64,000 nt of DNA from Bacteroidales bacterium (GTDB taxonomy: Bacteria > Bacteroidota > Bacteroidia > Bacteroidales > P3). The stretch spans positions 54,278 to 118,277 of the forward strand of contig JAIRNR010000019.1 of the NCBI GenBank assembly GCA_031257915.1. Reading direction: 5' to 3'. Positions within the stretch are counted from its first letter, which is position 1. Every line of letters begins with the position of its first letter. The translations under genes and the position numbers were made by a program. The notes under the pieces were generated by a model. That model was not told the origin of the DNA. It was given only the letters and a program-made list of their open reading frames with translations, and made no database searches. Below are positions 36,900-58,651 of this stretch, piece by piece.

Positions 36900-38066
36900 T
36901 CAAGACTTGATTATTTCCATACACATTCTCCCATTATGATACGGACATTTCCAAAAACCCGCTTTGTCGTCCTTATTGTTTATTGTTCCGTCAGGGGTAA
37001 TACTCCAAAACCATTCTCCGTTTGCTTTGTCAATAAGGTGTGTTTTTACGTAGTTCCACGTATTTACAGCATAATGTAAATATTTTTCATTTCCGGAAAT
37101 TCCATACGCATAATAAAATCCCGCAATCGTTTCCGCCTGCACCCACCAGTGGCGGTCATAAACAATATGCTTATCTGTCTTTTCGTAAATCATTGAACCG
37201 TCTTTTTGCAGTCCCTCTGTTGCTGCGTTGACAATATTTAATGTTACGGATGCAATATTTTTTGTATTACCCTGCAATTCCGCCGCTTCATAAAGCAGCC
37301 ATGCACATTCTATATCGTGTCCGTACGAAACAGCCTTTGACAGAGGATTCCACGCCATATCAAAGAAAAGATTTTGATGATACGTTTCGGTTGAAATAAT
37401 TTTTTCGCAGAAAATTTTTATAAGATTTTTATGTGCCTTTTTGAGCCGCTCATTTTTCCACACACGTAAAAGGTTTGTGTATGGCTCTAAAATATGCAGA
37501 TGAGTGTTCATTGACTTCGGCGTATTGTCATCTTTATCGCTTAAGCGCATATCTTTTATCTGTTGCCATTTTCTGTCTAACGCTTCTACATAGCCGCCGT
37601 ACTGCCTGTCAAGAGCATACTTTTCCATGCAGTCAAATATCTTTATTGCTTCGTTAAGTGCGTCCGTATCGTTCACTGCTCTGTAATACTCCGACAATCC
37701 GTATATCGCAAAACCTTGTGCGTATAACTGTTTACGTGTATTTACAGGGTTGCCGTTGCTGTCCAACTCCCAAAAAACGCCGCCATATTCTTTATCTGTA
37801 AAATATTTTACAAAGTATTCGTAAGCATGTTGCGCAATTTTTAAATATTTATCATCTTTCAGAATATTGTACGCAGAAGAAAATGTCCATAAGATACGTG
37901 CATTCATAACAACACCTCTGTTCGCATTTTTGTACAGTTTTTCCTTACCGTCAATGCGTCCGTAAAATCCGCCGTCAGGGTCGAACATTTTATTCTGCCA
38001 GTATGGGAGAATATTTTGCGTAAGTTCGCTTTTTAATTCCCGCTGTAATTTCCGTAATTCTTGCAT
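36900..38066 (-). CDS. Mannobiose/cellobiose 2-epimerase
   Basis: A 388-residue (alpha/alpha)6-barrel enzyme of the N-acylglucosamine 2-epimerase superfamily. It has the features of cellobiose/mannobiose 2-epimerases: DPDGGFYGRIDG near residue 30, NARILWTFSSAY, AQGFAIYGLSEYYRA, SYGHDIECAWLLYEA, RHWWVQAETIAGF and the C-terminal CPYHNGRMCMEI with a conserved His. It has no signal peptide, so it is cytoplasmic. It would convert beta-1,4-mannobiose into mannosyl-glucose, the substrate of the GH130 enzyme encoded two genes upstream. The gene is the last of the mannan locus, 9 bases after the symporter gene. Epimerisation of cellobiose is an alternative activity. Confidence 0.9.
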   Translation of the reverse strand: MQELRKLQRELKSELTQNILPYWQNKMFDPDGGFYGRIDGKEKLYKNANRGVVMNARILWTFSSAYNILKDDKYLKIAQHAYEYFVKYFTDKEYGGVFWELDSNGNPVNTRKQLYAQGFAIYGLSEYYRAVNDTDALNEAIKIFDCMEKYALDRQYGGYVEALDRKWQQIKDMRLSDKDDNTPKSMNTHLHILEPYTNLLRVWKNERLKKAHKNLIKIFCEKIISTETYHQNLFFDMAWNPLSKAVSYGHDIECAWLLYEAAELQGNTKNIASVTLNIVNAATEGLQKDGSMIYEKTDKHIVYDRHWWVQAETIAGFYYAYGISGNEKYLHYAVNTWNYVKTHLIDKANGEWFWSITPDGTINNKDDKAGFWKCPYHNGRMCMEIIKS

Positions 38067-39497: not shown

Positions 39498-39508
39498 ATT
39501 CTTTGTTT

Positions 39509-40684
39509 TTATTTGTTTGTTAAACGCATGTTTTTTTCTGCCATTGCACATATCGCTTCAACTGATGTGCGGGAACGAAAGCCGTCTGCCGGCGTGTTTA
39601 TGCAGTAATCAAGTAATTTTTCTACTGTTGAAGTTGCAACATGCATTCTCGTATCCGACGAAGCATAATAGATATACACAGTGCCATCTTCATCTGTAAT
39701 CCACCCATTGCAAAATAAGACATTTGAAACATCACCGATACGTTCTTTGCCTTTCGGTGCCATGAAATGCCCGGCAGGTTCTGCTATTACTTTTGTCGGG
39801 TCGTCAAGAGAAGTGAGATAGAGATACAACACATAGCGAAGTCCTGCGGCACAAGCGCGTACTCCATGTGCCAAGTGCAGCCATCCTTTTTTCGTTTTTA
39901 TCGGGTGCGGTCCCTCGCCGTTTTTCACTTCTTTTATTGTGTGATAATGGCGTAAATTTATTATTTTTTCTTCTTTTATTTCCGCATGGGTAATATCGTC
40001 TATTAACGCCCAGCCAATACCTCCGCCGCTGCCTGTGTCAATAAATCCATCCTGCGGACGTGTATAAAGTGCATATTTGCCGTTTATAAATTCGGGATGC
40101 AGAACAACGTTGCGTTGTTGCGATTTTGATATAATATCGGGCAAGCGTTCCCATGCGAGAAAGTCCTTTGTACGTACTATTGCGGCTGTGGCTGTGGCTG
40201 CCGAAAGGTCGCCTGCGGGCGCGTTTCTGTCTTTACGCTCGGCGCAAAAAATGCCGTATATCCAACCATCTTCATGCTGTGTCAGACGCATATCATAAAC
40301 GTTTGTTTCCCCATCTGCAACATCCGGTAAAATTATCGGTTTATCCCAAAATCTGAAATTATCAATGCCGTTTTCACTTTCCGCAACAGCAAAAAATGAT
40401 TTGCGGTCGTTGCCTTCAACGCGTGCAAGCAAAATATATTTTCCGTTCCATTTTATTGCACCCGCATTAAACACTCCGTTTATGCCTATTCTTTCCATTA
40501 AAAACGGATTTGTTTTTTCATCAAGGTCGTATCGCCATATAACCGGAGTGTGCGCCGCAGTGAGAAGCGGATATTTATAACGTGTGTATATTCCGTTACC
40601 TGTTTCTATTGCTTTATTATTTCTCAGAAGAAGTTCTTCATGACGAACAAAAAGGTTTGAGATCTTATTTTCAAAAGTGTTCAT
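39509..40684 (-). CDS. GH130 4-O-beta-D-mannosyl-D-glucose phosphorylase
   Basis: A 391-residue five-bladed propeller enzyme of family GH130. Motifs are [22 protein letters not shown] near residue 70, [17 protein letters not shown] with the family's catalytic Asp near 134, [41 protein letters not shown], and [13 protein letters not shown]. This fits the GH130_1 mannosyl-glucose phosphorylases, which split mannosyl-glucose with phosphate into mannose-1-phosphate and glucose. It has no signal peptide, so it is cytoplasmic. It forms the core of the catabolic step with the epimerase and symporter encoded just downstream. A phosphorylase acting on mannobiose itself (GH130_2) is the main alternative. 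Confidence 0.92.
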
Positions 40685-40702: not shown

Positions 40703-41806
40703 TTATTTTGTTGAGATATTTTTTATATCGTTCAGAAACAATGTGCGGGGATGGGTGTAAAATTTTAAAAAATCGGGGACGGAAATCTGGCTGTTGAATG
40801 GGGCATAATAATGTTCGGGACGGTCGCAGGCATTGCGCCACACCACAAGATAACTTATCGGATATTTTTCTATCAGAGGCAGTAATGTTCCTGTCCACCA
40901 CGCAGAATCGGGAATACCCTCGTATCCTGTCTCCGTAAAGGCAATTACTTTGTTATGCGTTTCTCCAAGCTCGGTAATTGCAGATAAATCAGCGTTTACT
41001 TTTTCAATATATTCTTCTCTGTCGGTAAACATATACTGGTCACAGCCGAGAATATCAATGATATTGTCGCCGGGGTAACGTTCAAGATAATTGCCGGTAT
41101 CTGTTATATCTTGAGGAGAGTAGGCGTAAAGCAGTTGTGTTGCGCCTTTTTGCTGCATACGCTCGTATGTCATTGCCCACAGTTCTTTGTATTGCTCAGC
41201 GGTGCAGTGCATCGCACCCCACCAAAACCAGTGTCCGCTATTTTCGTGATAGGGACGAAAGATTATCGGTACTTTTACATCTTTACCGGTTTTTATTGAA
41301 TTGACAAACGCTGCAATATTATCAAGCCACTGCACAAATTTTTCATGGTTGCTGCCGCCGCGTAAAATTGTTTGCACGGAACTGTCGCCAATATCCCAAC
41401 TGCCGCCTCCTGTAATGGGATTTGCCGCATGCCAGCTTAAAGTAATTACACCGCCGTTTTCGTAATGCTTTATTATTTCCCTGCGCATACGGTCAAATGG
41501 TACTTTATCAAGGTTGGTATCGGCGGCGGCAAAGCCGTTTTCATTGCCGCATGCAAATTCTATTCGTCCCAAATCAAACGAAAGAAGTGCTGGCATATCG
41601 CCGCAAATTTCTTTTACATCGCTGCGGTTCGTATCTAAATACCACGTGTGCCCATAGACAGGGTCGTCATGATGTCCGAACAGAAAGCCGCTTTTTGCGG
41701 TATTCCGCAATTGCTGCAACAGGGCTGTTGCTTCATCTGTCTTGTTGTTTTTGCCGCAGCAGGCGCAAAGTAACGCTGCTGCTAACAATACTGTTGATTT
41801 TCTCAT
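40703..41806 (-). CDS. GH26 beta-mannanase/mannobiohydrolase, lipoprotein
   Basis: A 367-residue lipoprotein (signal ending LLCACCGK) with a single GH26 (beta/alpha)8 domain. The early GHHDDPVYGHTW loop is typical. The acid/base Glu is in FRPYHENSGHWFWWG near residue 184, and the nucleophile Glu is in AFTETGYE near 292. GH26 enzymes hydrolyse beta-1,4-mannan, and the compact form without a binding module resembles the mannobiose-releasing enzyme of the Bacteroides mannan locus. Periplasmic or surface location cannot be decided from the sequence. It lies 18 bases upstream of the GH130 gene. Confidence 0.9.
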   Translation of the reverse strand: MRKSTVLLAAALLCACCGKNNKTDEATALLQQLRNTAKSGFLFGHHDDPVYGHTWYLDTNRSDVKEICGDMPALLSFDLGRIEFACGNENGFAAADTNLDKVPFDRMRREIIKHYENGGVITLSWHAANPITGGGSWDIGDSSVQTILRGGSNHEKFVQWLDNIAAFVNSIKTGKDVKVPIIFRPYHENSGHWFWWGAMHCTAEQYKELWAMTYERMQQKGATQLLYAYSPQDITDTGNYLERYPGDNIIDILGCDQYMFTDREEYIEKVNADLSAITELGETHNKVIAFTETGYEGIPDSAWWTGTLLPLIEKYPISYLVVWRNACDRPEHYYAPFNSQISVPDFLKFYTHPRTLFLNDIKNISTK

Positions 41807-41917: not shown

Positions 41918-44320
41918 TCATTCAACCACCACCGTAGTTTTCAATAAGTCCTTATCAAGCGAACTGCCGCCAAGCATTATTTCATACTCACCTCTCTCCA
42001 CTCCCCACTTCATTTTCAAATCGTAGCAACCAAGTTTTTCAGGTGTAACATCCATCGTAACGGTCCTGCTTTCCCCCGCTTTAAGCGGAATACGTGCAAA
42101 GCCTTTTAACTCCTTTACAGGTCGGGTAACACTGCTCACAACATCTCTAATATACATCTGTGCAACCTCTACTCCATCTCTGCTACCTGTATTTTTTACC
42201 GTAACCTCAACAGTACCTTTGCCGTTTTTATCCACATTTGCTTTGAGGTCTGAATATTCGTAAGTGGTGTATGAAAGTCCGTAACCAAAGGGATAAAGAG
42301 GGGTTGACGGTTTTACGGCGTAAGGGTGAAAATACTGTGAGGGCTTGTGATTGTAAATCATTTGCAGTTGTCCAACGCTGCGCGGAATTGTTACTGCAAG
42401 CTTTGCACTCGGATTTACTTTCCCATAAAGGATTTCCGCTATCGCCTGCCCGCCGTACATTCCCGGTGCGAAAGCATCTATAAGTGCTGTTGCATTTTCG
42501 GCAGCATATTCTACACCAAGCGGGCGACCATGTATCAGAATTACTACTGTTGGTTTGCCGCTTGCAATAATTTTTTTTATAAGGTCGTTTTGCAATCCGA
42601 CAAGGTCAATATCACTGCGGTCGGTATCCTCACCATCGGTACGCTCTGTCCATCTGAAACGCATCATGTATTCACCCGCAACAACTATATTAAGGTCGGC
42701 ATTACGCGCTTTATCTACCGCCTCATCTACCTTTTCCTGCGGCATATTGCGCGGGTCCCATCCCTGTTCAACATAGTCAATCTGCGTGCCTTCGGGTGCA
42801 ATCTGCTTTATACCTTCAAGAATTGTTATAACGTTTTCGTCTTTTTGCTGCGAACTCCAATCACCCATAATATTTTCGTTATCGGCATTTATACCTGTAA
42901 CAAAAATTCGTTTGTACTTGCCTGCTTCAAGAGGAAGCAGCGGTGTTGAAGAAGCCGAAGCCGCTGTATTTTTAAGCAGCACAATGCCATTACGCGCACT
43001 TTCCAAAGCAGTGGCACGGTGTTCATTATTAAGACGAATTTTCATCGACTCGCTTTCGTCCGCAAAAGGCTGTTCAAACAAGCCAAGTGCAAATTTAACC
43101 GTAAGAATACGGCGCACCGATTCGTCAATACGCTTTTCGCTTATACGTCCCTCTTTGACAAGTTCAACCACCATTTCATTCCAATAAATACCGTGCATGT
43201 GCATATCCATACCGGCAATTATTGTTTGATAGAATGCTTCTTTAAGATTTTCTGCCGTACGGTGCAAATCATACACATGTTCTATATCCATCCAATCGCT
43301 GACGACAAATCCCTTAAAACCCCATTCTTTGCGTAAAATATCTGTCATCAACCACTCATTAGTATGGCAGGGAACGCCGTTTAATTCATTATGGCTCATC
43401 ATTACCGAAAGTGCGCCCACACCATGCCCGCCGCTTAAACCATCTGTGTTTTTTGTGCCGTCGAGCCCGACAATATTTCGTTTAAAAGACGGAAAAAAAA
43501 CTTCTCTTAACGTTCTTTCCGAAAGGTCTGCCGGTGAGCCATTAGTGCCGTTTATCGGCTCACTGCCGCCGACAAAGTGCTTCGCGCAGGCGAGAACATC
43601 TTCGTTTGTAATTCCCGCACTGCTGCCGAGTCCTGTTTTGCCTGTTGCAACATTGTAAAGATTGCCTTGATAGCCAAGCGTTGTTTTTTCACCCATAAGC
43701 ATTACGAGATAAGGGTCTTCTCCAAATGTTTCACCTACTCTGCCCCAGCGCGGGTCGCGAGCGACTTCAACATTGGGATTAAATGTCCAGTGCATATTCA
43801 TCGCTCTCATTTCCTTTGCTGTTTGTCGTGCGATTTTGTATGCCATAGCGGTATCAAAAGAACATGCAAGATTAATATTTGTCGGATATACCGTATTATC
43901 GGGCGCATTGGCGTTGCCGTGAATTGCATCAATGCCGAAAATTATCGGTATCTGTAAACGGCTTTGCATTGCGAGTTGCTGTAAATAATTTGCCTCTTTG
44001 AGTGTGAGAACATGCAGAAACGAGCCGATAAGACCCTGTTTTGTCCAATTCTCAACATCTTCTACTGTTGTGTTGGGATAAAATGCCTGCGCAGTATTTG
44101 TTTTAAGGTCTTCTTCGGTAAGAACCGTACTGTTTGCTTTGATATGCTCAATGCCCACAAACTGGTTCATTTGCCCGACTTTTTCTTCAAGCGTCATTCT
44201 TGACAGTAAATCCTCTACACGCCTTTCAACGGATTGTGAAGGATCTTTGTAAATTTCTTTCTGACTGCATCCTGTTAATGCCGCTACTGCTATTGCCATT
44301 GTTAAGAGTTTTTTTGTCAT
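41918..44320 (-). CDS. GH3 beta-glucosidase/beta-mannosidase-type lipoprotein
   Basis: An 800-residue GH3 enzyme with a lipoprotein signal (AVAALTGCS). The N-terminal barrel carries EEKVGQMNQF, FGIDAIHGNANAPDNTVYPTN, DPRWGRVGETFGEDPYL, KHFVGGSEPING and GFVVSDWMDIEH with the nucleophile Asp near residue 340. A second alpha/beta domain follows, then a C-terminal Fn3-like domain (VEVTVKNTGSRDGVEVAQMYIRD). In a mannan locus it probably removes terminal beta-1,4-glucose from glucomanno-oligosaccharides; a mannosidase role is possible. It lies between the two GH26 genes. Confidence 0.92.
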   Translation of the reverse strand: MTKKLLTMAIAVAALTGCSQKEIYKDPSQSVERRVEDLLSRMTLEEKVGQMNQFVGIEHIKANSTVLTEEDLKTNTAQAFYPNTTVEDVENWTKQGLIGSFLHVLTLKEANYLQQLAMQSRLQIPIIFGIDAIHGNANAPDNTVYPTNINLACSFDTAMAYKIARQTAKEMRAMNMHWTFNPNVEVARDPRWGRVGETFGEDPYLVMLMGEKTTLGYQGNLYNVATGKTGLGSSAGITNEDVLACAKHFVGGSEPINGTNGSPADLSERTLREVFFPSFKRNIVGLDGTKNTDGLSGGHGVGALSVMMSHNELNGVPCHTNEWLMTDILRKEWGFKGFVVSDWMDIEHVYDLHRTAENLKEAFYQTIIAGMDMHMHGIYWNEMVVELVKEGRISEKRIDESVRRILTVKFALGLFEQPFADESESMKIRLNNEHRATALESARNGIVLLKNTAASASSTPLLPLEAGKYKRIFVTGINADNENIMGDWSSQQKDENVITILEGIKQIAPEGTQIDYVEQGWDPRNMPQEKVDEAVDKARNADLNIVVAGEYMMRFRWTERTDGEDTDRSDIDLVGLQNDLIKKIIASGKPTVVILIHGRPLGVEYAAENATALIDAFAPGMYGGQAIAEILYGKVNPSAKLAVTIPRSVGQLQMIYNHKPSQYFHPYAVKPSTPLYPFGYGLSYTTYEYSDLKANVDKNGKGTVEVTVKNTGSRDGVEVAQMYIRDVVSSVTRPVKELKGFARIPLKAGESRTVTMDVTPEKLGCYDLKMKWGVERGEYEIMLGGSSLDKDLLKTTVVVE

Positions 44321-44330
44321 ATTTATTTCA

Positions 44331-45719
44331 TTATTTCAAATCCGGAACGCCGCTACGCATAATAACAAGAGGATTGTTTGCGGCATTTTGCCACCACTGC
44401 AAATCCGCATGTTCGTGTCCGTTCAGGTTCGTGTTATCGTAATCGTACCAGGGCATAAAAAACGACCATTTCGCGCCTGCCGCCCACTGCCCGCTTATTG
44501 TTGCCACGTTACCACACTCGCTTAAAGTTACTAGCTTATCCGTATATTTTTCAGCGATTGCCGAAAACTCTGCCGCCGCCGCTGCTGCACTGCTTTCATT
44601 GTACAGGTCGCGCCCGACAATATCAACATAGTCATCACCCGGATAGAAAGGACCGTCGTTTACTTGCGTCGTCCAAACCCAAATAAGATTGTTTAAGCCC
44701 TGCTGCTGAAAGTAGTTGAACATATAACGCCACAGGGCAACGTAAGCATTAGCACCATCCCTGCCCCACCAGAACCACGCCGTACCGCCTTGAAATGCGT
44801 AAATATTACCTGCGCCTTCGTGTAACGGCCGCCATATAACAGGTATGTTTTTTTGTTGCAACAGTTTCAAGTACTCCGCCATTTTTTGCAGGTCGGCTTT
44901 CATTACGGTATTTTCCCAAGTGCCGGCTATAAGAGCATTTGCAGGACGAAATGTTGTTTCTTCGGGACGGAACGTAACCTGTCCCTGCGTTGCGTTTTGA
45001 CTCACAGGTACGTTCCAGTGCCAGCACGCACTGACTATTCCGCCGCTGTTCCACCATTCCTCAACTATCTGTGTTTGCGTGTAGTCAATCCAGTTCGCGG
45101 GAGAAGCCCACAGGTGGATATAGTCAAACGTATTCATAGCGGGATACTTACCCGTTGCAGCAAAAACCATTTCAGCCTCGTCTGTATTCCATGCAACTTT
45201 TGCCACTGTACCCGAAATAATTTTATGTCCGTAATTTTCTTTTAGAAAGTTATAGAGATTTATTGCTTCGGGCGACGGATTTTGCGTAACAAGTTCCGAT
45301 GTCTGTACATTTTGCGTATCTACTGTGCTGAAAGTGATCGTTACCTGCGGTGCAGGCACTTTTGCCGGACCTGTTATTACGCCGTCCGGCACAGTGAGTG
45401 TATAAGTTGTGCTTTTACGCAGCTTTTCTGTTTTTATTGTTACGTTTGTACGGCTTGCGGCAACGCTTTTTATCCCTACGGTATCGCTATTGCTGCCAAT
45501 AAGGGTTACAAGAGAACGTCCTGTAATTGGGGAAAACACGTTTTTATCAAAAGTAAGAGTGATGGTAAGCGAATCATCTTTAATATTGCTGTCGCCGTTT
45601 GCCGGAATACTGCTGACAAGTACCGGAGCATCTACCTGCGGCTCGTCGGGAACCGGCTTTTCGCACGAAAAGAGCAATCCTGCTGCGACTGTCAATACTG
45701 TATTTTGTACAATTTTCAC
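44331..45719 (-). CDS. GH26 beta-mannanase with N-terminal Ig-like domain, lipoprotein
   Basis: A 462-residue lipoprotein (GLLFSCEKP). Residues about 30-135 are an Ig-like Big_5/SbsA domain (VLVSSIPANGDSNIKDDSLTI, then YTLTVPDGVITGPA), which would hold the enzyme away from the membrane. The rest is GH26: HLWASPANWIDY, CWHWNVPVSQ, acid/base Glu in WRPLHEGAGNIYAFQ near 298, GGTAWFWWGRDG, and nucleophile Glu in TLSECGNVA near 400. It is a likely surface endo-mannanase. The gene begins only 4 bases after the stop of the inserted ATPase gene, so its transcription must come through that gene. Confidence 0.9.
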   Translation of the reverse strand: MKIVQNTVLTVAAGLLFSCEKPVPDEPQVDAPVLVSSIPANGDSNIKDDSLTITLTFDKNVFSPITGRSLVTLIGSNSDTVGIKSVAASRTNVTIKTEKLRKSTTYTLTVPDGVITGPAKVPAPQVTITFSTVDTQNVQTSELVTQNPSPEAINLYNFLKENYGHKIISGTVAKVAWNTDEAEMVFAATGKYPAMNTFDYIHLWASPANWIDYTQTQIVEEWWNSGGIVSACWHWNVPVSQNATQGQVTFRPEETTFRPANALIAGTWENTVMKADLQKMAEYLKLLQQKNIPVIWRPLHEGAGNIYAFQGGTAWFWWGRDGANAYVALWRYMFNYFQQQGLNNLIWVWTTQVNDGPFYPGDDYVDIVGRDLYNESSAAAAAAEFSAIAEKYTDKLVTLSECGNVATISGQWAAGAKWSFFMPWYDYDNTNLNGHEHADLQWWQNAANNPLVIMRSGVPDLK

Positions 45720-47055: not shown

Positions 47056-49533
47056 TCAATTACGCTCAAATCTTACATTATCAATCAGAAGTTCCATTGT
47101 GTTGCCATTACCACCGTCTGTTGCACCAAATTCGCCGATATTCAAGTCAGGCAAAGAGTTTTCACCCGAACCCCAACCATCTTTAAATTCGGATAAAGAC
47201 ACCGTAACCGTTCTCCAAACCGTTTTGTCGTTCGGAATATTTACAACAGCCATATATTGAGTTCCGCCCGACTCCAATTCTAAACGAATGGCACCGCTGC
47301 CGCTCAGTACACGAACATCAAATTTGACAACCCAACCTTCAGCAGTTACGCCATCAAGAAGCATGTTGTTAGCACCATTGCGGAAAAACATACCACTTCC
47401 GTTATTACCTCTGAAATACGGAGTACCATCCAAACTCAAAGCAGGATTATTTTCTACTCCGTCGTAAAGCCAATAGTCATCAGAACGCTGATTATTAACG
47501 TTCGCTTGTCCCCACCATGAATTTTTTGTGCCATCGTTAAAGTCAAAATACACGTATGACACATCTTTAACAGAAGTGTTTATATTAAAATAATTCACAA
47601 GAGAAACCTTTGTTATAATTGCGGCATATCCGGCTACTCTCATACCGCCTGTCTGTAATTCCGCAAGGTCGGCAAGATTTATATAAAATTCGTACTCTGT
47701 CGAACCCTGCGCAAGTTCGGCGCAATCCCACTCGTTACGCCCAACTGTGTAACTTGTAAGTGCGGCTCCGCTGCTGTTAGTAAACTTAAGTTGATAATAA
47801 GTTGCAGCACCTTCATCACAAGTATATGTAACTTTTATTTTTGAACCGAAACCGGCATTTGCAAACTTCGTTGCCTCAATAACAACATTACTGTTCCAGT
47901 CCCATCCTGTTCCTACATTCTGCATTCCTTCCCAAAGAACAATCTCTTCATTATCGGCATCTCTTGTTACATTAACGGTATAATCGGCAGGACCGCCATT
48001 ATCAGACACTAACGATACGGATACTTCACCGTTTACAGAACTCGGAATGAGTACAAAAATCATGCTGCCCGAAACCATGTATTGCGCAGGCGAGCCATCA
48101 AGCAATACATCCGTAAGATGCTCAACATTTACTGCAACAATTTTAAGAGCATTGCCCGATGTTGTTGATGTTGGAATTTCTGTTGCATAGCAATACTGCG
48201 GTTTCAAAACAGTAAGTTCATCACTTGTAACTTCTTCACCGTTAAACATTGTAAGAACGACATTGCCTGTTTCATTTTCCAGAGTAAGTTCCGGAAGCGA
48301 AATGTTTGTTGCCGAAACTATAACAAGCCCATTCTCCGCATCATATACTTTTTCACCTATTGCTACTGATGTTACAAGGTTTAAATTCGTCCCCGCAAGT
48401 ACTACAACTTCACCAATGTTAGCGGGGTTTGGAGTTATATTTGTAACAGTCGGTTTTAAGGTTGATATTTCAATACCGATGGTGTCATTGTTATCCATAT
48501 TTAATACTATCCTGCCGCTGTGCGCCATTTCGGGCATTGTTACAACAATTTCTGTTGTACTCTGCGATTTAAGTTCCACATTTTTGGCTATGTTTGGGAA
48601 TGTTACATCCTTAACAAGGTCAAGGTTTGTACCGGTAACGGTAATATCGGTTTCAGGTGTAAGATCGGTTACCGGAGTTGCACCGCTGACCGCTGGCACA
48701 ATCATTGTAAGAACATCCTGTGTACCTGTCGTGATAAGCGAATATGCCGTGCCTGTAACAGTGCCTGTTTGTGCCAAACGCGGAACAACAACGGAAAATT
48801 CTGTTTCCGTTTGAGCAAACAAACTGTCGGCTACCACGCCGCCTCCAAATGTTACTGATTTAATCAAATCAACATCTGTTCCCGCAAAGGTGATAACCCC
48901 GCCTGCTTTAATTGTAGCGGGCGAAAATCCTGTAATTACAGGTTGTCTTACCGCAAGTGCTTCATCGGAATAAAGCTGATTACCGTAACCATCGGTAATA
49001 ATAATCTTGCCCGATAATGCTTCACGCGGTACATTCACCTTTATAACCGTTCTTGTCTTTTCATTAAAGGCAGTGGAATCGACAACAGCGTCCGTCCCCG
49101 AAAATACTACACTTGTAATATTCCACAGGTAATCGCCGCTTATTGTAATCTCCGCTCCTGCGCGAACAGTATCAAGCGGAACTATTGAAGCAATTGAATA
49201 TGGTTCCGTGAAAGACAGTGATACTTTTGAAACTATCTGTTTGCCATCGCCATATTTAAGGATTATAGGACCCTCTGTCGCATCCTGCGGAATAACAACT
49301 TTAATTTCGTCACTTGATATCCTTTCAATATCGGTAATATCGCCATGTCCGGGAATAACAACCGTATTCACCTGGTCAAGATTTGTGCCGACAATAGTTA
49401 TCGGTGTTCCGCGCAAAACAGGCAATGGTCCGAATGCCTGCAAAGAAACGGATTTATCCTCTTTTTTGCAACCTGTAAAGCAACACAGTGCGCCAAGCAG
49501 CATTGCAGCAATTATAAATTTATATCGTTTCAT
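47056..49533 (-). CDS. Surface glycan-binding lipoprotein with six TIG/Ig-like domains
   Basis: An 825-residue lipoprotein (LLGALCCFTGCKKED). Six successive IPT/TIG-type sandwiches fill about residues 30-500, each with a phrase such as GTPITIVGTNLDQVNTVVIPG or GEVVVLAGTNLNLVTSVAIG. Two C-terminal sandwiches follow. One is at about 505-640 (WEGMQNVGTGWDWN). The last, at about 645-825 (FDFNDGTKNSWWGQ, ending MELLIDNVRFERN), is like the end of the next protein upstream and is Trp/Tyr rich, as glycan-binding sites are. Position after susD marks it as a SusE/F or SGBP equivalent, projecting a mannan-binding domain outward on a TIG stalk. Direct binding is inferred. Confidence 0.85.
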   Translation of the reverse strand: MKRYKFIIAAMLLGALCCFTGCKKEDKSVSLQAFGPLPVLRGTPITIVGTNLDQVNTVVIPGHGDITDIERISSDEIKVVIPQDATEGPIILKYGDGKQIVSKVSLSFTEPYSIASIVPLDTVRAGAEITISGDYLWNITSVVFSGTDAVVDSTAFNEKTRTVIKVNVPREALSGKIIITDGYGNQLYSDEALAVRQPVITGFSPATIKAGGVITFAGTDVDLIKSVTFGGGVVADSLFAQTETEFSVVVPRLAQTGTVTGTAYSLITTGTQDVLTMIVPAVSGATPVTDLTPETDITVTGTNLDLVKDVTFPNIAKNVELKSQSTTEIVVTMPEMAHSGRIVLNMDNNDTIGIEISTLKPTVTNITPNPANIGEVVVLAGTNLNLVTSVAIGEKVYDAENGLVIVSATNISLPELTLENETGNVVLTMFNGEEVTSDELTVLKPQYCYATEIPTSTTSGNALKIVAVNVEHLTDVLLDGSPAQYMVSGSMIFVLIPSSVNGEVSVSLVSDNGGPADYTVNVTRDADNEEIVLWEGMQNVGTGWDWNSNVVIEATKFANAGFGSKIKVTYTCDEGAATYYQLKFTNSSGAALTSYTVGRNEWDCAELAQGSTEYEFYINLADLAELQTGGMRVAGYAAIITKVSLVNYFNINTSVKDVSYVYFDFNDGTKNSWWGQANVNNQRSDDYWLYDGVENNPALSLDGTPYFRGNNGSGMFFRNGANNMLLDGVTAEGWVVKFDVRVLSGSGAIRLELESGGTQYMAVVNIPNDKTVWRTVTVSLSEFKDGWGSGENSLPDLNIGEFGATDGGNGNTMELLIDNVRFERN

Positions 49534-50763: not shown

Positions 50764-52449
50764 TTAAAATTCATAATCCTTTGCCTCTTGCATAATGTTG
50801 GGCGTTTTTGTTACGGTACTCGCAGGAATGGGTAATGTTAAACTGTTTTCTACAAAATTTATTTGCATGGCATTTTCGTTATAATAGAACGGAGTACCTG
50901 TTTCCTGAGTAATGGTATCGGGCAAAACAGGATTAAAACCGCCATGATACATATCCGCTGCATTGTAGTCTTCAAGTTTAATTGAACTGTTGCCATTTGT
51001 TATATACTGCCTTTCACGGTGCATTCCGTTTATATACGTAAGCGCGTCCTGCATATTGCGATAACTCATACGCTTTATATCAAAGAAATTATTACCTTCA
51101 AAGGCAAATTCGCACCTGCGTTCCTTTATGAGTGCGGGGTAAGTAATCTCAGAAACAGTATTAAGATTTGCACGCAAACGAACCTGATTGAATACATCAA
51201 CCGCAAGAGCATCTGTTGTAGAAACACCTGCACCGATACATGCTTCAACATAGCATAAATACACATCAGTTAAACGCAGAATGTAGAGATTATTTCCCGC
51301 ATCCTGATTTGAACCTGCTTTACCGCCGCAGTCTTCGTTCGTACCAACAAGATATTTTCTAACATGAGCAAGCATTTCATTCGGCATTTCGGTACTTTTA
51401 TCCTCCGAATAATTTACGTAGGTATAGCCGCCGCCGCCAAGATTATTATAATGGTCGCCATTGCGCATAAATGTTAACGGTCGGCGCAAATCACCATCTT
51501 CAAACGCTTCCTGCAAACTTAAAGTTGGTCCCTTGCCCGCACCATAAGCAGCACCATTGTTCAAAAGTGCATTGCGTGTAAGGTGCGCACTATGCAGATT
51601 GCCGTAGCCATAGCCGTCATTTGTGCATTGCATTGCAAAAAGCGATTCCACATTATTATTACCTGACGGATAGAACATATCAGACAAATTTGAATAGAGC
51701 GACAAACCGCTGTTCTTTATAACATCTTCGGCGTAGTTTTTTGCGGCAGTAAAATTTGCAGCAGAATTTGCGTCATTAAGGTGCGATGCCATCGTAAGGT
51801 GCAATTTAGCAAGCATTCCTTTCGCCGTCCATTGCGTACAACGCCCTGCTTCCCACGTGGTCGCCGACAAATTTTCCATTGCAAACACTAAATCTCTGCG
51901 TATAAACTCATACACACTTGACTGCTTGTAGCGATAAACTTCGTTATTATTTATATTGTTATTAGTAATAACAGGCACATCCCGCCAATACTCCGTCAGC
52001 AAAAAATGCGCAATACCGCGAATACAGCGTGCCTCTGCAAGGGCGCGTGTTATTGCACCTTCCGAAACGCCGTTTGTTCTTGCTGCCTCAGGCATGTCAT
52101 TGAGTATATTATTACAGTATGATATTACACGATACAAACCATTCCATCCCTGAGTAAGAAATTTATTCCCATTATTAAAAGTCATATAATAGAACTGTCC
52201 CTCCTGGTCATAAGTATAGAACAGATCACCTGCAAGTTCGTCGCCTGCCATCCATTGAAAACTTGTCCCAAAATCCTGCCATACAAACATTGTGTAAAGC
52301 GTGCGGGTTGCAGCATTAACCGATGCGTCTGATGTATAATAATTGTCAAAAGTAAGATTATCATCAGGCACGACTGTCAAAAACTTTTGGCAAGATGTGG
52401 CACATATCAGAGACAGTGCCAATCCCATAAATATCATTATTCGTTTCAT
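50764..52449 (-). CDS. susD: SusD/RagB-family glycan-binding lipoprotein
   Basis: A 561-residue lipoprotein (ICATSCQKFL) that forms the lid of the SusC importer. The SusD start (CQKFLTVVPDDNLTFDNYYTS), the TPR-like helical core (RCIRGIAHFLLTEYWRDVPVI, ARCTQ-WTAKGMLAKLHLTMA), and the C-terminal RRCEFAFEGNNFFDIKRM followed by LPIPASTVTKTPNIMQ are all family features. It pairs with the adjacent SusC and is inferred to take up manno-oligosaccharides. A 155-base gap with a potential RNA hairpin separates it from susC. Confidence 0.95.
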   Translation of the reverse strand: MKRIMIFMGLALSLICATSCQKFLTVVPDDNLTFDNYYTSDASVNAATRTLYTMFVWQDFGTSFQWMAGDELAGDLFYTYDQEGQFYYMTFNNGNKFLTQGWNGLYRVISYCNNILNDMPEAARTNGVSEGAITRALAEARCIRGIAHFLLTEYWRDVPVITNNNINNNEVYRYKQSSVYEFIRRDLVFAMENLSATTWEAGRCTQWTAKGMLAKLHLTMASHLNDANSAANFTAAKNYAEDVIKNSGLSLYSNLSDMFYPSGNNNVESLFAMQCTNDGYGYGNLHSAHLTRNALLNNGAAYGAGKGPTLSLQEAFEDGDLRRPLTFMRNGDHYNNLGGGGYTYVNYSEDKSTEMPNEMLAHVRKYLVGTNEDCGGKAGSNQDAGNNLYILRLTDVYLCYVEACIGAGVSTTDALAVDVFNQVRLRANLNTVSEITYPALIKERRCEFAFEGNNFFDIKRMSYRNMQDALTYINGMHRERQYITNGNSSIKLEDYNAADMYHGGFNPVLPDTITQETGTPFYYNENAMQINFVENSLTLPIPASTVTKTPNIMQEAKDYEF

Positions 52450-52604: not shown

Positions 52605-55600
52605 TTAAAATCCGATATTTACTCCAAGCGAAAATATTCTCGGCGTCGGATAACGTCCCAAATCAATATTTGTCAGGATTACATTTTGGTTATACGAACC
52701 AATTTCAGGATCCAAACCGCTGTATTTTGTAAACGTCCAAACATTTTGAGCATTAAAGTAAAGTTTAAGATTAGTTATATATGCTTTCTTTAACCATTCT
52801 TTTGGAAAGTTATAAGCGAGTGAGATATTTTGAATACGCAAAAAACTTGCATCTTCGAGCCAACGGTCGCTCATACGGTTGTTGCCGTTTATGTCATTTA
52901 CGCTGAAACGCGGAATGGTCGGATTATCCGATAAATTTGTAATGTAGCAATTGTTCGGGTCGGTAACATTCTGGTTATTGCCGTCATGGTAGCCAAGTTG
53001 CACGCGATCCAGCTCACTTACCGATTGATTGTCCCAAAGGTTCATACCACCCTCTGTTTTCACGCGTACATAGTTCAGGATTTCTCCGCCATACTGACCT
53101 GTTAAATTCAGATTTAATTCCCATCCCTTATACGTAAAAGTATTGTTAAAACCAAAAGTAAATTCGGGATTTGGGTCGCCTATTATGGTTTGGTCATATT
53201 CGTCAATAACGCCGTCTTTAACACCGTTCGGACCGCTTATATCTTTAAATTTAACATCACCAATCCAGGCTCCTGTAGTACGGTGAACACCAACATCTGT
53301 GGGTTTTGCAGAAGTCATAAGGTCATTGGCGTCTTTATAATAACCATCGGTAACATAACCATAAAAGACGCCCATCGGCTGTCCAACCATTATAGTAGAT
53401 ACGGTTGTGAATGCACCGTTAAAAGTCATTTGATTAAGGTCGCCGTAGAAAGGCGTTCCCAAATCGTCAAGAGCCACAACCTTATTCCTGTTAACAGATA
53501 CGACAAGGTTACTGTACCAGTTAAAATCTTTACCCGCAATATTATGTGTGTTCAAAGCAATATCCATACCTTTATTATCAACCTTACCAATGTTCATATA
53601 AGGTGCTGCAATATATAGCCAGGGTTCAGAACCACCAAGCACCGGTGAAACAGAGGGTTGAAGTAAGAGGTCCTTTGTAGTCTTGTAATAAACATCAACT
53701 GTCAAATCAATTCTTTGATTAAAGAAACCTATATCCAAACCTGTGTTATATTGAATTGATGTTTCCCATTTTAAATCAGGATTGGCGTTGTTTTGCATTC
53801 TGTATCCGGTACCTGTCCACGTAGGAACAGCAAGCATTGTAGAGCCATAGAGATAATTTCCTATATTATCATTGCCGTTATGTCCGTAGCCAATACGAAG
53901 TTTTAAATTTGAAACAACATTTTCTGCAGGTTTCATAAATTCCTCGTTTGAAATACGCCATGCTGCCGCAGCAGAAGGGAAAAGTCCCCAACGATGATTT
54001 GCGCCAAAACGAGAGGACGCATCACCGCGTGCCGTTAATGTCAATAAATATCTGTCGGCATAATTATAGTTTGCACGACCGAATACAGACAGTTTTGCTA
54101 CTCTGCCGCTCCAACCGTTATTACTTGTAAATACACCGTCTTTACCTGTTACATGAATGTCGTTAGACGAAAGTTGATCTTTTATTATCTGTGTTCCATT
54201 CCAGGTAGATTGCGATGTTTCGGTTCCTGCCATAATATTTAAATTATGATTTCCGAAACTTTGATTGTATGTGAGATAATTTTTCCAGTTAAAATAAAAA
54301 TTATTTTCCTCTTGCTGCATTATCTTGATATTGGTTTCTTTCAATAGTCCGTATTCGTAACTTGGTTTGAAACCAAGATTTTTATTATGTCCTCCGTCAA
54401 TACCAAATTCCGTACGGAAAGAAACGTATTTACCAAAATTAAACTGTGCATAAACATTACCCATAATCCTGTCGCGAATAAAATTATTTATTTGATCTTT
54501 TGTTAATGCAACAGGATTATATAAAGATGAACCGAATGTAGTATTAGGTCCGGCATACTTACCGTCAAAATCGTAAACAGGAACCGCAGGCGACATTAGT
54601 GCAGCTTGCATAACAAGTCCATTTATACCATCATTGTTTATCATATTTTCGTCTGTACGTGCATACGACAAAACACCACCTGCTTTTACCCATTTGTTAA
54701 ACTCATTATCAACGCTAACACGTGCAGTATAACGTTCAAAATCAGAATTAAGATAAGTTCCGTCCTGCCCCGTATATCCAAGCGATAATGCGTATTGAAG
54801 TCCTTTTGCGCCGCCGCTCATAGAGATAGCGTGATTATGCATCCAGGCATTACGGGTAACTTCATCTTGCCAATCGGTACCTTTTCCAAGTAAAGACGGA
54901 TCTAAATAAGACTGGTCTATATTTTCAAGAAATCCCTCAGCATTTAACGACTTTTGATACTCCGCATACTGACTTAAATTCATCATTTTGTACTTGTTCG
55001 GGCGAATTTGCAAAGCAGCATAACCATCATAAGTAACACTAAACTTTCCGGACTGTCCGCGCTTTGTGGTAACAATAATAACACCGTTTGCGCCTGCCGA
55101 ACCATATATAGCAGTAGCAGAAGCATCTTTAAGAATATCTATTGAAACAATATCGCTCGGCGCAATTGCAGCAAGCGGACTAACCATGTTTTGACCTCCC
55201 GAACCGCCGCTCCATTCATAATTTACAGTTGCCGTACCTGCACCGCTCATCGGAATACCATCTATAACATATAACGGCTCGTTGCTTCCTGTTATGGAAC
55301 TTGCACCGCGAATACGAATTGAAGCAGCCGCGCCCGGCGCACCGGAGTTTTGCGAAACCTGCACACCAGGAATACGTCCTTGCAAACCTTGTTCAAGGGA
55401 TACTATTGTTGATTTTTGCAGATTTTCCCCCGAAAGCGAACTGACAGATCCCGTAACATCCGGCTTTCTCATTGTACCATACCCCACAACAACAACTTCG
55501 CCAAGCATTTCGCTGCCCTCTCCAAGCGACACATCAATACTGGTCTGCCCCGGCTCAAGCCGCACTTCACGTGTCTTATATCCGATACTCGAAAAAACAA

Positions 55601-55808
55601 GCACATCGCTGCCGCCTGTCATTTTCAAAGTAAAATTACCATCCACATCGGCAACAGCACCGCCTGTGGACGAACCCTTAATTTTGACGGTTGCCCCAAC
55701 CATTGGGGATCCATCCCCTGCATTGGTAACTCTGCCTGTAATTTCGCGTTGTGCAAACCCGCTAAACCCAAGCATTAAGACCAACACTAATAGAACAAAT
55801 TTTTTCAT
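52605..55808 (-). CDS. susC: SusC/RagA-family TonB-dependent oligosaccharide importer
   Basis: A 1067-residue TonB-dependent outer-membrane transporter. After the signal peptide (to residue 20, GFSGFAQ) there is a carboxypeptidase-regulatory-like domain (about 20-105, REITGRVTNAGDGSPMVGAT), then the SusC signature (VVVVGYGTMRKPDVTGSVSS), a plug (about 115-235, with IRIRGASSITGSNEPLYVIDG) and a large 22-stranded barrel ending in FSLGVNIGF. With SusD it forms the energy-dependent importer for this locus. No STN domain or anti-sigma partner is seen, so regulation is not through a SusC-linked ECF sigma. Its promoter carries the paired operator also found before the GH5 gene. Confidence 0.95.
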   Translation of the reverse strand: MKKFVLLVLVLMLGFSGFAQREITGRVTNAGDGSPMVGATVKIKGSSTGGAVADVDGNFTLKMTGGSDVLVFSSIGYKTREVRLEPGQTSIDVSLGEGSEMLGEVVVVGYGTMRKPDVTGSVSSLSGENLQKSTIVSLEQGLQGRIPGVQVSQNSGAPGAAASIRIRGASSITGSNEPLYVIDGIPMSGAGTATVNYEWSGGSGGQNMVSPLAAIAPSDIVSIDILKDASATAIYGSAGANGVIIVTTKRGQSGKFSVTYDGYAALQIRPNKYKMMNLSQYAEYQKSLNAEGFLENIDQSYLDPSLLGKGTDWQDEVTRNAWMHNHAISMSGGAKGLQYALSLGYTGQDGTYLNSDFERYTARVSVDNEFNKWVKAGGVLSYARTDENMINNDGINGLVMQAALMSPAVPVYDFDGKYAGPNTTFGSSLYNPVALTKDQINNFIRDRIMGNVYAQFNFGKYVSFRTEFGIDGGHNKNLGFKPSYEYGLLKETNIKIMQQEENNFYFNWKNYLTYNQSFGNHNLNIMAGTETSQSTWNGTQIIKDQLSSNDIHVTGKDGVFTSNNGWSGRVAKLSVFGRANYNYADRYLLTLTARGDASSRFGANHRWGLFPSAAAAWRISNEEFMKPAENVVSNLKLRIGYGHNGNDNIGNYLYGSTMLAVPTWTGTGYRMQNNANPDLKWETSIQYNTGLDIGFFNQRIDLTVDVYYKTTKDLLLQPSVSPVLGGSEPWLYIAAPYMNIGKVDNKGMDIALNTHNIAGKDFNWYSNLVVSVNRNKVVALDDLGTPFYGDLNQMTFNGAFTTVSTIMVGQPMGVFYGYVTDGYYKDANDLMTSAKPTDVGVHRTTGAWIGDVKFKDISGPNGVKDGVIDEYDQTIIGDPNPEFTFGFNNTFTYKGWELNLNLTGQYGGEILNYVRVKTEGGMNLWDNQSVSELDRVQLGYHDGNNQNVTDPNNCYITNLSDNPTIPRFSVNDINGNNRMSDRWLEDASFLRIQNISLAYNFPKEWLKKAYITNLKLYFNAQNVWTFTKYSGLDPEIGSYNQNVILTNIDLGRYPTPRIFSLGVNIGF

Positions 55809-55836: not shown

Positions 55837-55844
55837 CAAATTTA
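55837..55844 (-). promoter_or_regulatory. -7 promoter box of susC
   Basis: The minus strand reads TAAATTTG (TAnnTTTG), 28 bases upstream of the susC start. The predicted leader of roughly 20 bases is A/T-rich with no Shine-Dalgarno sequence. The proximal operator copy ends exactly 20 bases upstream of this box. Confidence 0.7.
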
Positions 55845-55864
55845 TGCAAGATAATAATATAAAA

Positions 55865-55901
55865 GTGATACTATTTTAACAGTTTGTGATACTTTTTTAG
55901 C
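55865..55901 (-). promoter_or_regulatory. Paired operator (21-bp direct repeat) of the susC promoter
   Basis: Minus strand: distal copy GCTAAAAAAGTATCAC (55901-55886), five bases, proximal copy GTTAAAATAGTATCAC (55880-55865). The start-to-start distance is 21 bp, two helical turns, which puts both on the same face. The same pair, with the same distance to its -7 box, precedes the GH5 gene. This is the layout expected for an AraC-type activator or the AraC domain of a hybrid two-component sensor. The region lies between the CE7 stop and the susC start. Confidence 0.8.
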
Positions 55902-55905
55902 AATT

Positions 55906-57213
55906 TTATTCAAAAAGGTATTTTTTTATGAATTTTTCCTTTGCTTCCCACCATTCCATACCTGCACTATGCCCCTGATTAGGATAAATAATGTAATATT
56001 TTTCAGACGGAATAAGGTTGTATCCCGCAAAATTTGTGTGCGGCGGGCAAACATCATCCTGCAATCCCACGCACATAAGCACGGGGCATGTGATTTGCGG
56101 CGCGAGATTTTTAATATCAAAGTATGAAAGTGTTTTGTAAAAATCATCATCACTTATGCCAAGTTCTTTTTGTTTATCCATAAGCCAGTTTCCGGGCCAG
56201 TCAACAATTCTGAAATAATCGGGATAGTCGGAAAGGAAAGGTACCGACGGTGCAATTGCTTTAAGACGATTATCCAACGCAGCGGCAGCAAGAGTAAATG
56301 CGCCGCCCTGACTGCCGCCCTCCGCAACAATTCGTGTTTTGTCCACTTCGGGGCGAGAAGCAATAAAATCAATGGCGCGAATTAAATCCATAAATGCACC
56401 CCTATAATAATAGTTGTCTTTGCTCTCTAATCCCCATGTGAGCCACATATTATTTGTATCAGGATTTTTAAGCAAGCCTTGATTGCGGGTTGATAATACA
56501 AATTCTATTCTGTCTGCGTAACCGCCCGGTATCCACGGTTTGGAGTCATAGCCCATATAATGAATTTCGGCAGGATATTTCCCTTTTTGCGCCGGTGTTG
56601 AATAATAACCTTGAATTTCTACTCCTCCGAGCGACTTCATTTTTACAAGATAAAGTTTGCGGTATTTGTTTGTATCCGGAATTGGTATAAGTTTATATTC
56701 GGGTTTTACACTTGCGAGTTCCTGTTTCGCTTTATCCCAAAATGCTTTAAAATCGGGTTGTGCATCTGTTGGAGATATTATTTTTGTCGGCTCATAACCG
56801 ATAATAAATTTTTTATGAAATTCTATTTCACCGGGCATGTACGGATTGCCGAATGGGGCATCGGAAGCGAAAACCCAACAAATATAAAATCCCGCTTCAT
56901 CAACACTCGGGCTAAATGTTACAGTTATCGAATCATTCGGCTGGACAGTAACCCATTTATTTATTTCCGGACAAACTATAATCCGAACGGAACTGTCCCA
57001 AGACGAATACGCTTCCCTGACATCTTTTAAAACCGTAAGCGTTAGTGTTCTGCTTTTGGCTGTATCGCCGCTATTTTTAATAACAACAGGAATTACCGGC
57101 TTTGCATTTTCCGAAAACACCCAGTCGTGAGGTTGTTCTACACGGTAGGATAATTGCGCACAAACGTTTGTCATAAGCGCAAGTGCAATAATTAAAGATA
57201 ATACGTTTTTCAT
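55906..57213 (-). CDS. CE7 acetyl-xylan/mannan esterase (AXE1 type)
   Basis: A 435-residue secreted alpha/beta-hydrolase. Residues about 20-135 form an N-terminal Ig-like domain not present in basic CE7 enzymes. The catalytic part has RIVAEGGSQGGAFTLAA with the nucleophile Ser near 301, VGLQDDVCPPHTNF with the Asp near 383, and YPNQGHSAGMEWW with the His near 414. IRAIDFIASRPEVD also fits the AXE1 family. By context it removes acetyl groups from acetylated (gluco)mannan so that the mannanases can act. The signal peptide ends near VCAQ. It lies between the GH5 and susC genes. Confidence 0.88.
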   Translation of the reverse strand: MKNVLSLIIALALMTNVCAQLSYRVEQPHDWVFSENAKPVIPVVIKNSGDTAKSRTLTLTVLKDVREAYSSWDSSVRIIVCPEINKWVTVQPNDSITVTFSPSVDEAGFYICWVFASDAPFGNPYMPGEIEFHKKFIIGYEPTKIISPTDAQPDFKAFWDKAKQELASVKPEYKLIPIPDTNKYRKLYLVKMKSLGGVEIQGYYSTPAQKGKYPAEIHYMGYDSKPWIPGGYADRIEFVLSTRNQGLLKNPDTNNMWLTWGLESKDNYYYRGAFMDLIRAIDFIASRPEVDKTRIVAEGGSQGGAFTLAAAALDNRLKAIAPSVPFLSDYPDYFRIVDWPGNWLMDKQKELGISDDDFYKTLSYFDIKNLAPQITCPVLMCVGLQDDVCPPHTNFAGYNLIPSEKYYIIYPNQGHSAGMEWWEAKEKFIKKYLFE

Positions 57214-57255
57214 TGTCCTTATATGTTTATAAATTCAGCAACACAAACAATCGCC

Positions 57256-57301
57256 ATTGCAGGCTTGACCCGCAGTCGTCATTGCGGGCTTGACCCGCAA
57301 T
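57256..57301. repeat. Tandem REP-like palindromes between GH5 and CE7 genes
   Basis: A perfect copy, ATTGCGGGCTTGACCCGCAAT, is at 57281-57301 and touches the stop codon of GH5. A degraded copy (ATTGCAGG/CCCGCAGT) is at 57256-57276. The element matches that at 41876-41896 apart from one loop base. It may act as a transcript 3' end or stability element between the two genes. Confidence 0.75.
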
Positions 57302-58569
57302 CACTTTCCACCCGCTCCGCAAATTATATTAACAGTACCAGTATCCGTAACAAACACCGAATTTAATCCCTGTTCCTCCTGTGCAGGGTCGGCAACATAA
57401 TCATCACCACGCTCCCAAAATATATGCCCTTGCGGTAATTCCGCGTATCCACCCCAACCCCAAATATTGCAACCCGCAAATTCTTTATTTGCAACCAAAC
57501 CGAACACATATTCATAATACTTATCCCGTGCCGTAGTAGGTGTTTCCCTGCTGAATTTTATACCATCCCGCGGATAGCCGAATTCACCAAGCACAAGCGG
57601 TTTATTTAAACGTGCCGCCACTGCCTTATGTTCATTAACGTATTCGAGCGTTTGCTCACACGCATAGCGCAAACTGTCGGCGTATGTTTCTTTATTTATC
57701 CACCCCCAGTTATAACTCCAAATGTGCATTTCAAGATAGTCCATATTTTTATCGGCATGAATTTTCTCAAAAAGCGCAATATCTTCTTCACAACCGTGTT
57801 TGCCCTCGCTACCACTTGTTACAAGATGATTTTTGTCAATTGATTTTATTTGAGCGGCAACGGAAGCCATCCACGCGGCAAATGCTTCCTTATTTACGCT
57901 GTCGGTAGAAAAACAGCGCGGCTCATTACCCACTTGCCACGCCATAATTGCGGGATCGTCGGCATATTTTACACCTGTATAGCGATTGGTGCGGTTCAAG
58001 ATGAAATCAACATGACCGGCAAATAATTTCTGCGCACTGTCGCACATAACAAATTGCGAAACATACTGCATATACGCTCCCCAGCCGTCAATAGCAGGAA
58101 CCGGCGGCACACCGCGCCCAGCCCATTGCAGATAAACAGAATATCCCCCACTCCATTCCCATGCGTTATTCAGGTACAGCACAGCAAGCATATTGCGCTT
58201 ACGCATTTCGCTGAGCAGATAGTCAAGTCCGTCAAGCAATGTGTCATTATATACGCCTGCCGCGATTTGCAATGTCGGCTCAACGCGGCTCTTAACACCA
58301 CATTCGCCGTCTGCGCCTGCCAATATTCGCAAATTATTTACGCCGATTGATTGCAAAAAATCAAGCTCCCTGTGCAAACGTTCTCGATTGCCACCCTCAC
58401 CCACAGAAGCAAGTATGGGTGCATACCACATATTTACACCAACATAATAATACGGCTTTCCATTACGTATAAAATGGTCGCCATCGGCTGTTACAAAAGG
58501 AATTGAAGATTGTTTACATGAGAGAAAAACAATAGAGATAAACAATAGAAAAAATGCTTTTTTTACCAT
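57301..58569 (-). CDS. GH5 (subfamily 7-like) endo-beta-mannanase, lipoprotein
   Basis: A 422-residue lipoprotein (MVKKAFFLLFISIVFLSCKQ) with a GH5 barrel. Family features are HFIRNGKPYYYVGVNMWYAP, NNLRILAG, acid/base Glu in AWQVGNEPRCF near residue 211, HIWSYNWGWIN, and nucleophile Glu in PLVLGEFGYPRDG near 326, as in mannanases of subfamily 7. I moved the start to 58569, because the frame is open to 58611 but the -7 box lies at 58587-58594 and the lipoprotein signal begins at 58569. It is the first gene of the mannan locus and is followed by the acetylesterase gene. Confidence 0.9.
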   Translation of the reverse strand: MVKKAFFLLFISIVFLSCKQSSIPFVTADGDHFIRNGKPYYYVGVNMWYAPILASVGEGGNRERLHRELDFLQSIGVNNLRILAGADGECGVKSRVEPTLQIAAGVYNDTLLDGLDYLLSEMRKRNMLAVLYLNNAWEWSGGYSVYLQWAGRGVPPVPAIDGWGAYMQYVSQFVMCDSAQKLFAGHVDFILNRTNRYTGVKYADDPAIMAWQVGNEPRCFSTDSVNKEAFAAWMASVAAQIKSIDKNHLVTSGSEGKHGCEEDIALFEKIHADKNMDYLEMHIWSYNWGWINKETYADSLRYACEQTLEYVNEHKAVAARLNKPLVLGEFGYPRDGIKFSRETPTTARDKYYEYVFGLVANKEFAGCNIWGWGGYAELPQGHIFWERGDDYVADPAQEEQGLNSVFVTDTGTVNIICGAGGK

Positions 58570-58586
58570 ACGAAACTTTGTTTTGG

Positions 58587-58594
58587 CAAATATA
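58587..58594 (-). promoter_or_regulatory. -7 promoter box of the GH5 gene
   Basis: The minus strand reads TATATTTG, a perfect TAnnTTTG box, 17 bases before the chosen start at 58569. Because it lies inside the longer open frame, it argues against a start at 58611. Confidence 0.7.
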
Positions 58595-58614
58595 CGACCT
58601 AAAAAAGTCACATT

Positions 58615-58651
58615 GTGATACTATTTTAACATTTTCTGATACTATTTTGAC
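58615..58651 (-). promoter_or_regulatory. Paired operator (21-bp direct repeat) of the GH5 promoter
   Basis: Minus strand: distal copy GTCAAAATAGTATCAG (58651-58636), five bases, proximal copy GTTAAAATAGTATCAC (58630-58615). The proximal copy is identical over 16 bases to that of susC. The 21-bp repeat distance and the 20-bp gap to the -7 box are also identical. A shared activator for the GH5-CE7 and susCD transcripts is the simplest reading. Confidence 0.8.

Follow-up and report, generated by a model that had tools for sequence, protein, structure and literature searches.

Two promoters of a predicted mannan locus

The 64,000-nucleotide stretch analyzed in this study (the window; positions 54,278 to 118,277 of contig JAIRNR010000019.1, assembly GCA_031257915.1, from a Bacteroidales bacterium) carries on its minus strand a predicted mannan locus. 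Two of its genes, coding for a SusC-like TonB-dependent transporter (52605..55808) and for a GH5-type glycoside hydrolase (57301..58569, PF00150), are each preceded by a pair of 16-mer direct repeats. By comparison with other genomes, this pair is a conserved predicted operator, and its reader is most likely a soluble AraC-type protein encoded on another contig of the same genome.

All genes from 58569 down to 36900 lie on the minus strand. The GH5 gene is the first after the second operator and is likely co-transcribed with an AXE1-type esterase gene (55906..57213, PF05448). Its start is most likely the ATG at 58569, which follows the promoter box, and not the GTG further upstream (58611) with which the longest frame opens. 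The susC-like gene is the first after the first operator and is followed by genes for a SusD-like protein (50764..52449, PF07980/PF14322) and for two surface glycan-binding-like proteins, one with PF18329 (49552..50718) and one with a TIG domain over the cut-off and PF18329 below it (47056..49533). Next come an ATPase_2 (AAA-type) gene (45724-46860, PF01637), located inside the operon, and genes for GH26 (44331..45719, PF02156), GH3 (41918..44320, PF00933/PF01915), a second GH26 (40703..41806, PF02156), a GH130 mannoside phosphorylase-like protein (39509..40684, PF04041), an MFS sugar transporter (38076..39551, PF13347) and a GlcNAc 2-epimerase-like sugar epimerase (36900..38066, PF07221). The combination of GH26, GH130 and epimerase suggests β-mannan as the substrate. 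The two operators precede what appear to be the opening genes of separate operons and would between them cover the locus. A second ATPase_2 (PF01637) gene is present in the window on the plus strand (16033-17451), and in a genome of the same genus (G001) an unnamed 376-aa frame (L050:15874-17004) occupies the place of the in-operon ATPase_2 gene.

Both promoters have the same order, namely 16-mer, 5 bp, 16-mer, 20 bp and TAnnTTTG. In front of susC the distal half-site is GCTAAAAAAGTATCAC (55901-55886), the proximal half-site GTTAAAATAGTATCAC (55880-55865) and the box TAAATTTG (55844-55837); in front of GH5 they are GTCAAAATAGTATCAG (58651-58636), GTTAAAATAGTATCAC (58630-58615) and TATATTTG (58594-58587), respectively, all on the minus strand. 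The proximal 16-mers are thus identical, and the pairing, the 21-bp periodicity and the 20-bp gap to the box described in the original prediction were all exact to the base. TAnnTTTG is perfect in both promoters and is the −7 box expected for the primary sigma factor of Bacteroidetes (box type as in PMC7366714). The two promoters have different spacers and flanks but keep half-sites, spacing and box. No match at gathering score was obtained for RNA families in the window between 50000 and 62000.

Seven matches to the 16-mer with up to three mismatches were found in the window, with a mean of 1.14 in shuffled sequence and none of 100 shuffles reaching seven. Four of the seven are the paired halves, and the remaining three are far from these and from one another. 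The source genome is a draft of 2,494,785 bases in 109 contigs and 86% complete. In it the pair pattern, allowing up to three mismatches, matched at these two promoters only (control, 0), and a search for the proximal half plus the box at the same tolerance returned the same two places without mismatches and one more with three (control, 1). A crowd of random pairs had been set beforehand as the outcome that would speak against the prediction, and the genome-wide pair search gave only the two promoter places.

Conservation of the operator in relatives

A search with the SusD-like protein in 61 genomes revealed close orthologues in G001 (61% identity) and in G079, from another family of the same order (67%), and weaker ones in G066. 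The promoter of susC reads GTAAGAAAAGTATCAG, GATAAAATTGTACAAT and TATCTTTG (distal half, proximal half and box) in G001, and GACAAAAAAGTATCAC, GATAATAATGTATTTG and TACATTTG in G079, in both with a perfect box exactly 20 bp off. Comparison of related mannan loci, as had been proposed, therefore showed the arrangement kept before susC in both genomes. The GH5 orthologue of G001 (79% identical) has the promoter AAACAATTAGTATAAG, GTTAAAATAGTATCAC and TATCTTTG, in which the proximal 16-mer equals that of the window letter for letter and the spacer is largely changed. Its weaker distal half overlaps the final codons of the gene in front, which codes for an AraC protein. An AraC-family gene is thus found directly before operator and GH5 in G001, and one of 292 aa directly before operator and susC in G079. 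The susC leader of G001 (L050, about 6790-6960) also contains a duplicated stretch, GTGCGAGTTCCATACGACCTACTAAAAACAAATTA.

A strict pattern scan over all GTDB contigs returned 30 stretches, 11 of them overlapping a reading frame of at least 150 aa. Some were followed up, and only one, on the Prevotellaceae contig L035 (JAETNS010000005.1), was taken as a true promoter relative, with a box at 20 bp and mannan genes. It reads GTGAAAATCGTATCAT, GGCAAAATTGTATCAA and TAACTTTG with the same spacing and lies beside GH130, transporter and epimerase genes; G198, labelled as belonging to the same order, carries this site. In two Paludibacteraceae genomes (L041:1171-1203 and L043:7273-7305) a common GTATCA pair at 21 bp is followed by a CGCGCGTATATGCGCG palindrome, and the gene after the pair in L041 has no Pfam match.

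Distribution across AraC loci

The AraC protein of G079 was used as query against the order (393 genomes), and 48 genomes gave a match at 1e-40 (61 places listed). The test set consisted of 40 loci from 37 genomes, some of the stretches being short contigs, and the scoring matrix was built from the four half-sites of the window alone. In 694,742 bases there were 645 perfect TAnnTTTG boxes. At the lowest cut-off a half-site was found 19 times at 20 bp from the box and 17 times at 41 bp, the mean for offsets other than 20 being 3.0. One cut-off up, these counts were 17 and 16, and the reversed sequence gave none at 20 bp and at most three anywhere. The full pair at offset 20 was present in 18 of the 40 AraC loci (25 sites), and at each of 30 other offsets (5 to 35) in no more than three loci. 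None of 1000 column-permuted matrices reached 18 loci (mean 0.5, maximum 7). The 18 positive loci carry 13 family labels and include L124 but not L121. A mannan gene lies within the fetched stretch in 12 of them, and in L124 genes of GH26, GH130 and GH5 type are situated just past it. No listed operator site extends into a reading frame beyond its edge; most precede susC, GH5, GH26, GH130 or an unnamed gene, and two of them have no gene start within reach.

GH26 was found in 106 of the 393 genomes, comprising 38 of the 48 with the AraC and 68 of the other 345. As a control, one GH26 locus was taken from each of 40 of these 68 genomes; not all of them are mannan loci, and nine hold GH130. At the same cut-off the full operator was absent from all 40 control loci as against its presence in 18 of the 40 AraC loci (p 3e-7, only a guide given that the genomes are related), and at the next lower cut-off it was found in one control locus and in 19 AraC loci. 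The operator therefore tracks the AraC gene and not GH26 as such.

Three loci without a site at this cut-off (L110:9112, minus strand; L111:10850, plus strand; L112:9544, minus strand) have 21-bp pairs between AraC and GH26 or GH5 in which the proximal half is good and the distal one poor. No perfect TAnnTTTG lies at 20 bp from them, and they may be operators with another promoter box.

Form of the site and the −33 element

In 33 distinct sites from 24 loci conservation was highest at AGTAT in the distal half and at GnTAA in the proximal half, bearing in mind that sites picked by a matrix are biased. The inner part of the 16-mer pair thus looks the most constrained. With a box at −7, a TTTG element at −33 is expected where the proximal half ends (PMC7366714). 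TTTG near −33 was absent from both promoters of the window, whose proximal halves end in TCAC at that place. Among the 33 sites, seven proximal halves ended in TTTG as against no distal half (p 0.005), even though the matrix favours TCAC there. In view of these ends and their position, the proximal half and the −33 element most likely overlap, and the two promoters of the window, reading TCAC at −33, would depend on an activator.

The candidate regulator

The source genome encodes seven AraC-type domains, none of them on the contig of the window. One is in a 292-aa protein encoded on contig C67 (bases 74123-75001), which showed 72% identity to the AraC of G001 and 49% to that of G079 and which groups with the former inside a clade of 17 rows (SH-aLRT 99, quick tree). 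Its gene is located behind a second GH5 gene, the homologues of which form part of the mannan loci in G079 and G001. With respect to Pfam, it matched only the DNA-binding domain PF12833 (73 bits, cut-off 33.6), with no match in the N-terminal part, where a regulator of the AraC/XylS type would carry a cupin-like domain for sensing and dimerization. In the predicted structure, modelled with moderate confidence (mean pLDDT 76, pTM 0.54), the N-terminal part is rich in strands and the C-terminal part has seven helices. Both the sequence and the fold of the latter match solved AraC-type domains, and the protein has the C-terminal double helix-turn-helix domain by which the AraC/XylS family is defined. 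Fold matches included the regulatory domain of RhaR (TM by target 0.62); those over the whole chain (ToxT, Rns) superposed poorly, with an rmsd of about 20, and are of use at domain level only. Autoregulation was also considered, and no operator was found before the GH5-AraC pair of C67.

Of the 40 loci of this AraC family 18 contain the operator, and of the 40 GH26 loci from genomes without this AraC none does. The regulator absent from the window is therefore most likely the soluble one-component protein of C67 and not a hybrid two-component system. The original prediction had proposed the 16-mer pair as a candidate binding site and as a handle to the missing regulator, and it was through its conservation and its association with the AraC family that the C67 protein was reached. 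An AraC-type reader had been suggested as well, and this part agrees with the arrangement tracking one AraC family; the hint at a hybrid two-component regulator was not supported.

Several observations weigh against the C67 protein as reader of a mannan operator. Its gene is unlinked to the mannan locus, and the lack of an operator before its own GH5-AraC pair points the same way. The draft, at 86% completeness, may also lack another candidate. The strict pair pattern, with up to two mismatches, was found in none of 100 relatives. At the cut-off used, 22 of the 40 AraC loci had no site, at least 11 of them with a mannan-type gene nearby, and L097, L110, L111, L112, L119 and L122 are among the mannan-linked loci lacking it. 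The fetched stretch contained no homologue of GH26, GH130 or GH5 in 16 of the 40 AraC loci, including six of the 18 positive ones, so that part of the AraC family may serve other loci. GH26 was missing from 10 of the 48 genomes with the AraC, and the reversed-sequence controls gave one locus of 40 in each set.

A hybrid two-component system might instead read the operator, as has been proposed for other glycan loci and as in the galacto-/glucomannan locus of B. ovatus; we regard this as unlikely. Among the regulators reported for plant-polysaccharide loci of Bacteroides, hybrid two-component sensors are the most frequent, and one of them, BACOVA_02097, binds manno-oligosaccharides (both as given in PMC3243724). 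For the hybrid regulators of B. thetaiotaomicron, the predicted direct repeats described in PMC3878776 average 21 bp, and three for α-mannan have the form 16-5-16. The source genome itself has two full-length hybrid regulators, on contigs C106 and C34, but other susC-like genes are found no more than about 4.5 kb from each. Such regulators combine sensor, kinase, receiver and AraC domain in about 1300 aa and usually lie beside their locus, but the contig of the window has no AraC-type domain. Moreover, the 40 GH26 loci without the AraC, all lacking the operator, include five with a hybrid-regulator gene, and only two of the 40 AraC loci (L122 and L132) have one; five against two of 40 is by itself no clear difference.

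Somewhat less probable still is that the site is read by another one-component AraC protein of the source genome, or by one encoded in the missing 14% of the draft. There are seven AraC-type domains from which to choose, and a paralogue on contig C90 (36% identity to the G079 protein) is accompanied by a comparable direct repeat of 21 bp with 3′-terminal GTGTCA. However, the C67 protein is the closest of the source genome to the operator-adjacent proteins of G079 and G001, and the C90 protein falls in another clade and has its own orthologue in G001. In the C90 region (L057:11772-12760), the direct repeat (TTTGACACAATTTTG twice) and an esterase gene whose box reads TACATTTG lie downstream of the AraC paralogue. 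No TTTGACAC motif was detected in the sequence next to the G001 orthologue.

That the similarity arose by chance in AT-rich intergenic DNA, or by recent duplication of one promoter to a place 2.7 kb away, is very improbable, given that spacers and flanks diverged with half-sites, spacing and box kept, that the same offset is conserved in other genomes and equalled by none of the 1000 permuted matrices, and that the held-out test contradicts chance, which the original prediction had likewise held very unlikely.

Proposed mechanism

The preferred reading is that the paired 16-mers form one activator site before two predicted mannan operons, bound by the soluble AraC protein of C67, and the sequence comparisons make this quite probable. 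One AraC monomer would bind each 16-mer, and with two helical turns between them both monomers would lie on one side of the DNA. At the proximal 16-mer, the monomer would occupy the position of the −33 element and assist RNA polymerase in starting at the TAnnTTTG box 20 bp on. The inducer would likely be a small cytoplasmic breakdown product of mannan, and AraC bound to it would switch on the GH5-esterase operon and the presumed operon from susC and susD to the epimerase together.

A comparable geometry is known from araI1-araI2 in E. coli, where the half-sites for AraC are direct repeats with a spacing of about 21 bp and the proximal half-site overlaps the upstream element of the promoter. 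The E. coli protein differs from the window system in phylum, promoter type and ligand.

With regard to glycan loci, the HTCS_Man-1/2/3 motifs for α-mannan in B. thetaiotaomicron likewise consist, as presented by Ravcheev et al. (2013, PMC3878776), of two direct 16-bp sites with a 5-bp spacer read by an AraC-type DNA-binding domain; the likeness drawn here is one of geometry. There, the reader is a membrane hybrid two-component regulator, unlike the most likely soluble and unlinked protein proposed here. The galacto-/glucomannan locus of B. ovatus is also a β-mannan locus bearing GH26 and has an activator that responds to substrate, but it is paired, in the account of PMC3243724, with the periplasmic-sensing hybrid regulator BACOVA_02097. 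The β-mannan locus of Muricauda sp. MAR_2010_75 has an AraC-type regulator, FG28_RS02325, which is reported as expressed; unlike the window locus it also holds a hybrid regulator (PMC9860051). This operator is not described in the literature searched, supplements and RegPrecise excepted, nor is any regulon of this AraC family. In view of the HTCS_Man 16-5-16 repeats, the direct-repeat geometry is already known, and the new part is a one-component AraC family tied to this operator.

More tentatively, and with somewhat more doubt than belief, a soluble AraC acting through 16-5-16-20-TAnnTTTG could be an old and widespread master switch for β-mannan across Bacteroidales which senses a cytoplasmic breakdown product. 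Loci run by hybrid regulators, such as that of B. ovatus, would then represent regulator replacements, and in the genus of the window the regulator would have left the locus to work in trans from a satellite GH5-AraC pair.

A raw sequence pattern has thus become a defined predicted operator with base-exact promoter geometry and one candidate regulator gene outside the locus, which makes the control of predicted β-mannan digestion in part of the Bacteroidales directly testable. The motif can be used to find further members of the regulon, and it predicts which loci answer a cytoplasmic rather than a periplasmic signal.

Other features of the window

On the plus strand, the window contains two giant frames, 17625-24680 (2351 aa) and 26062-33252 (2396 aa), after which come genes for BspA-type leucine-rich-repeat proteins (33303-34679 and 35200-36792).

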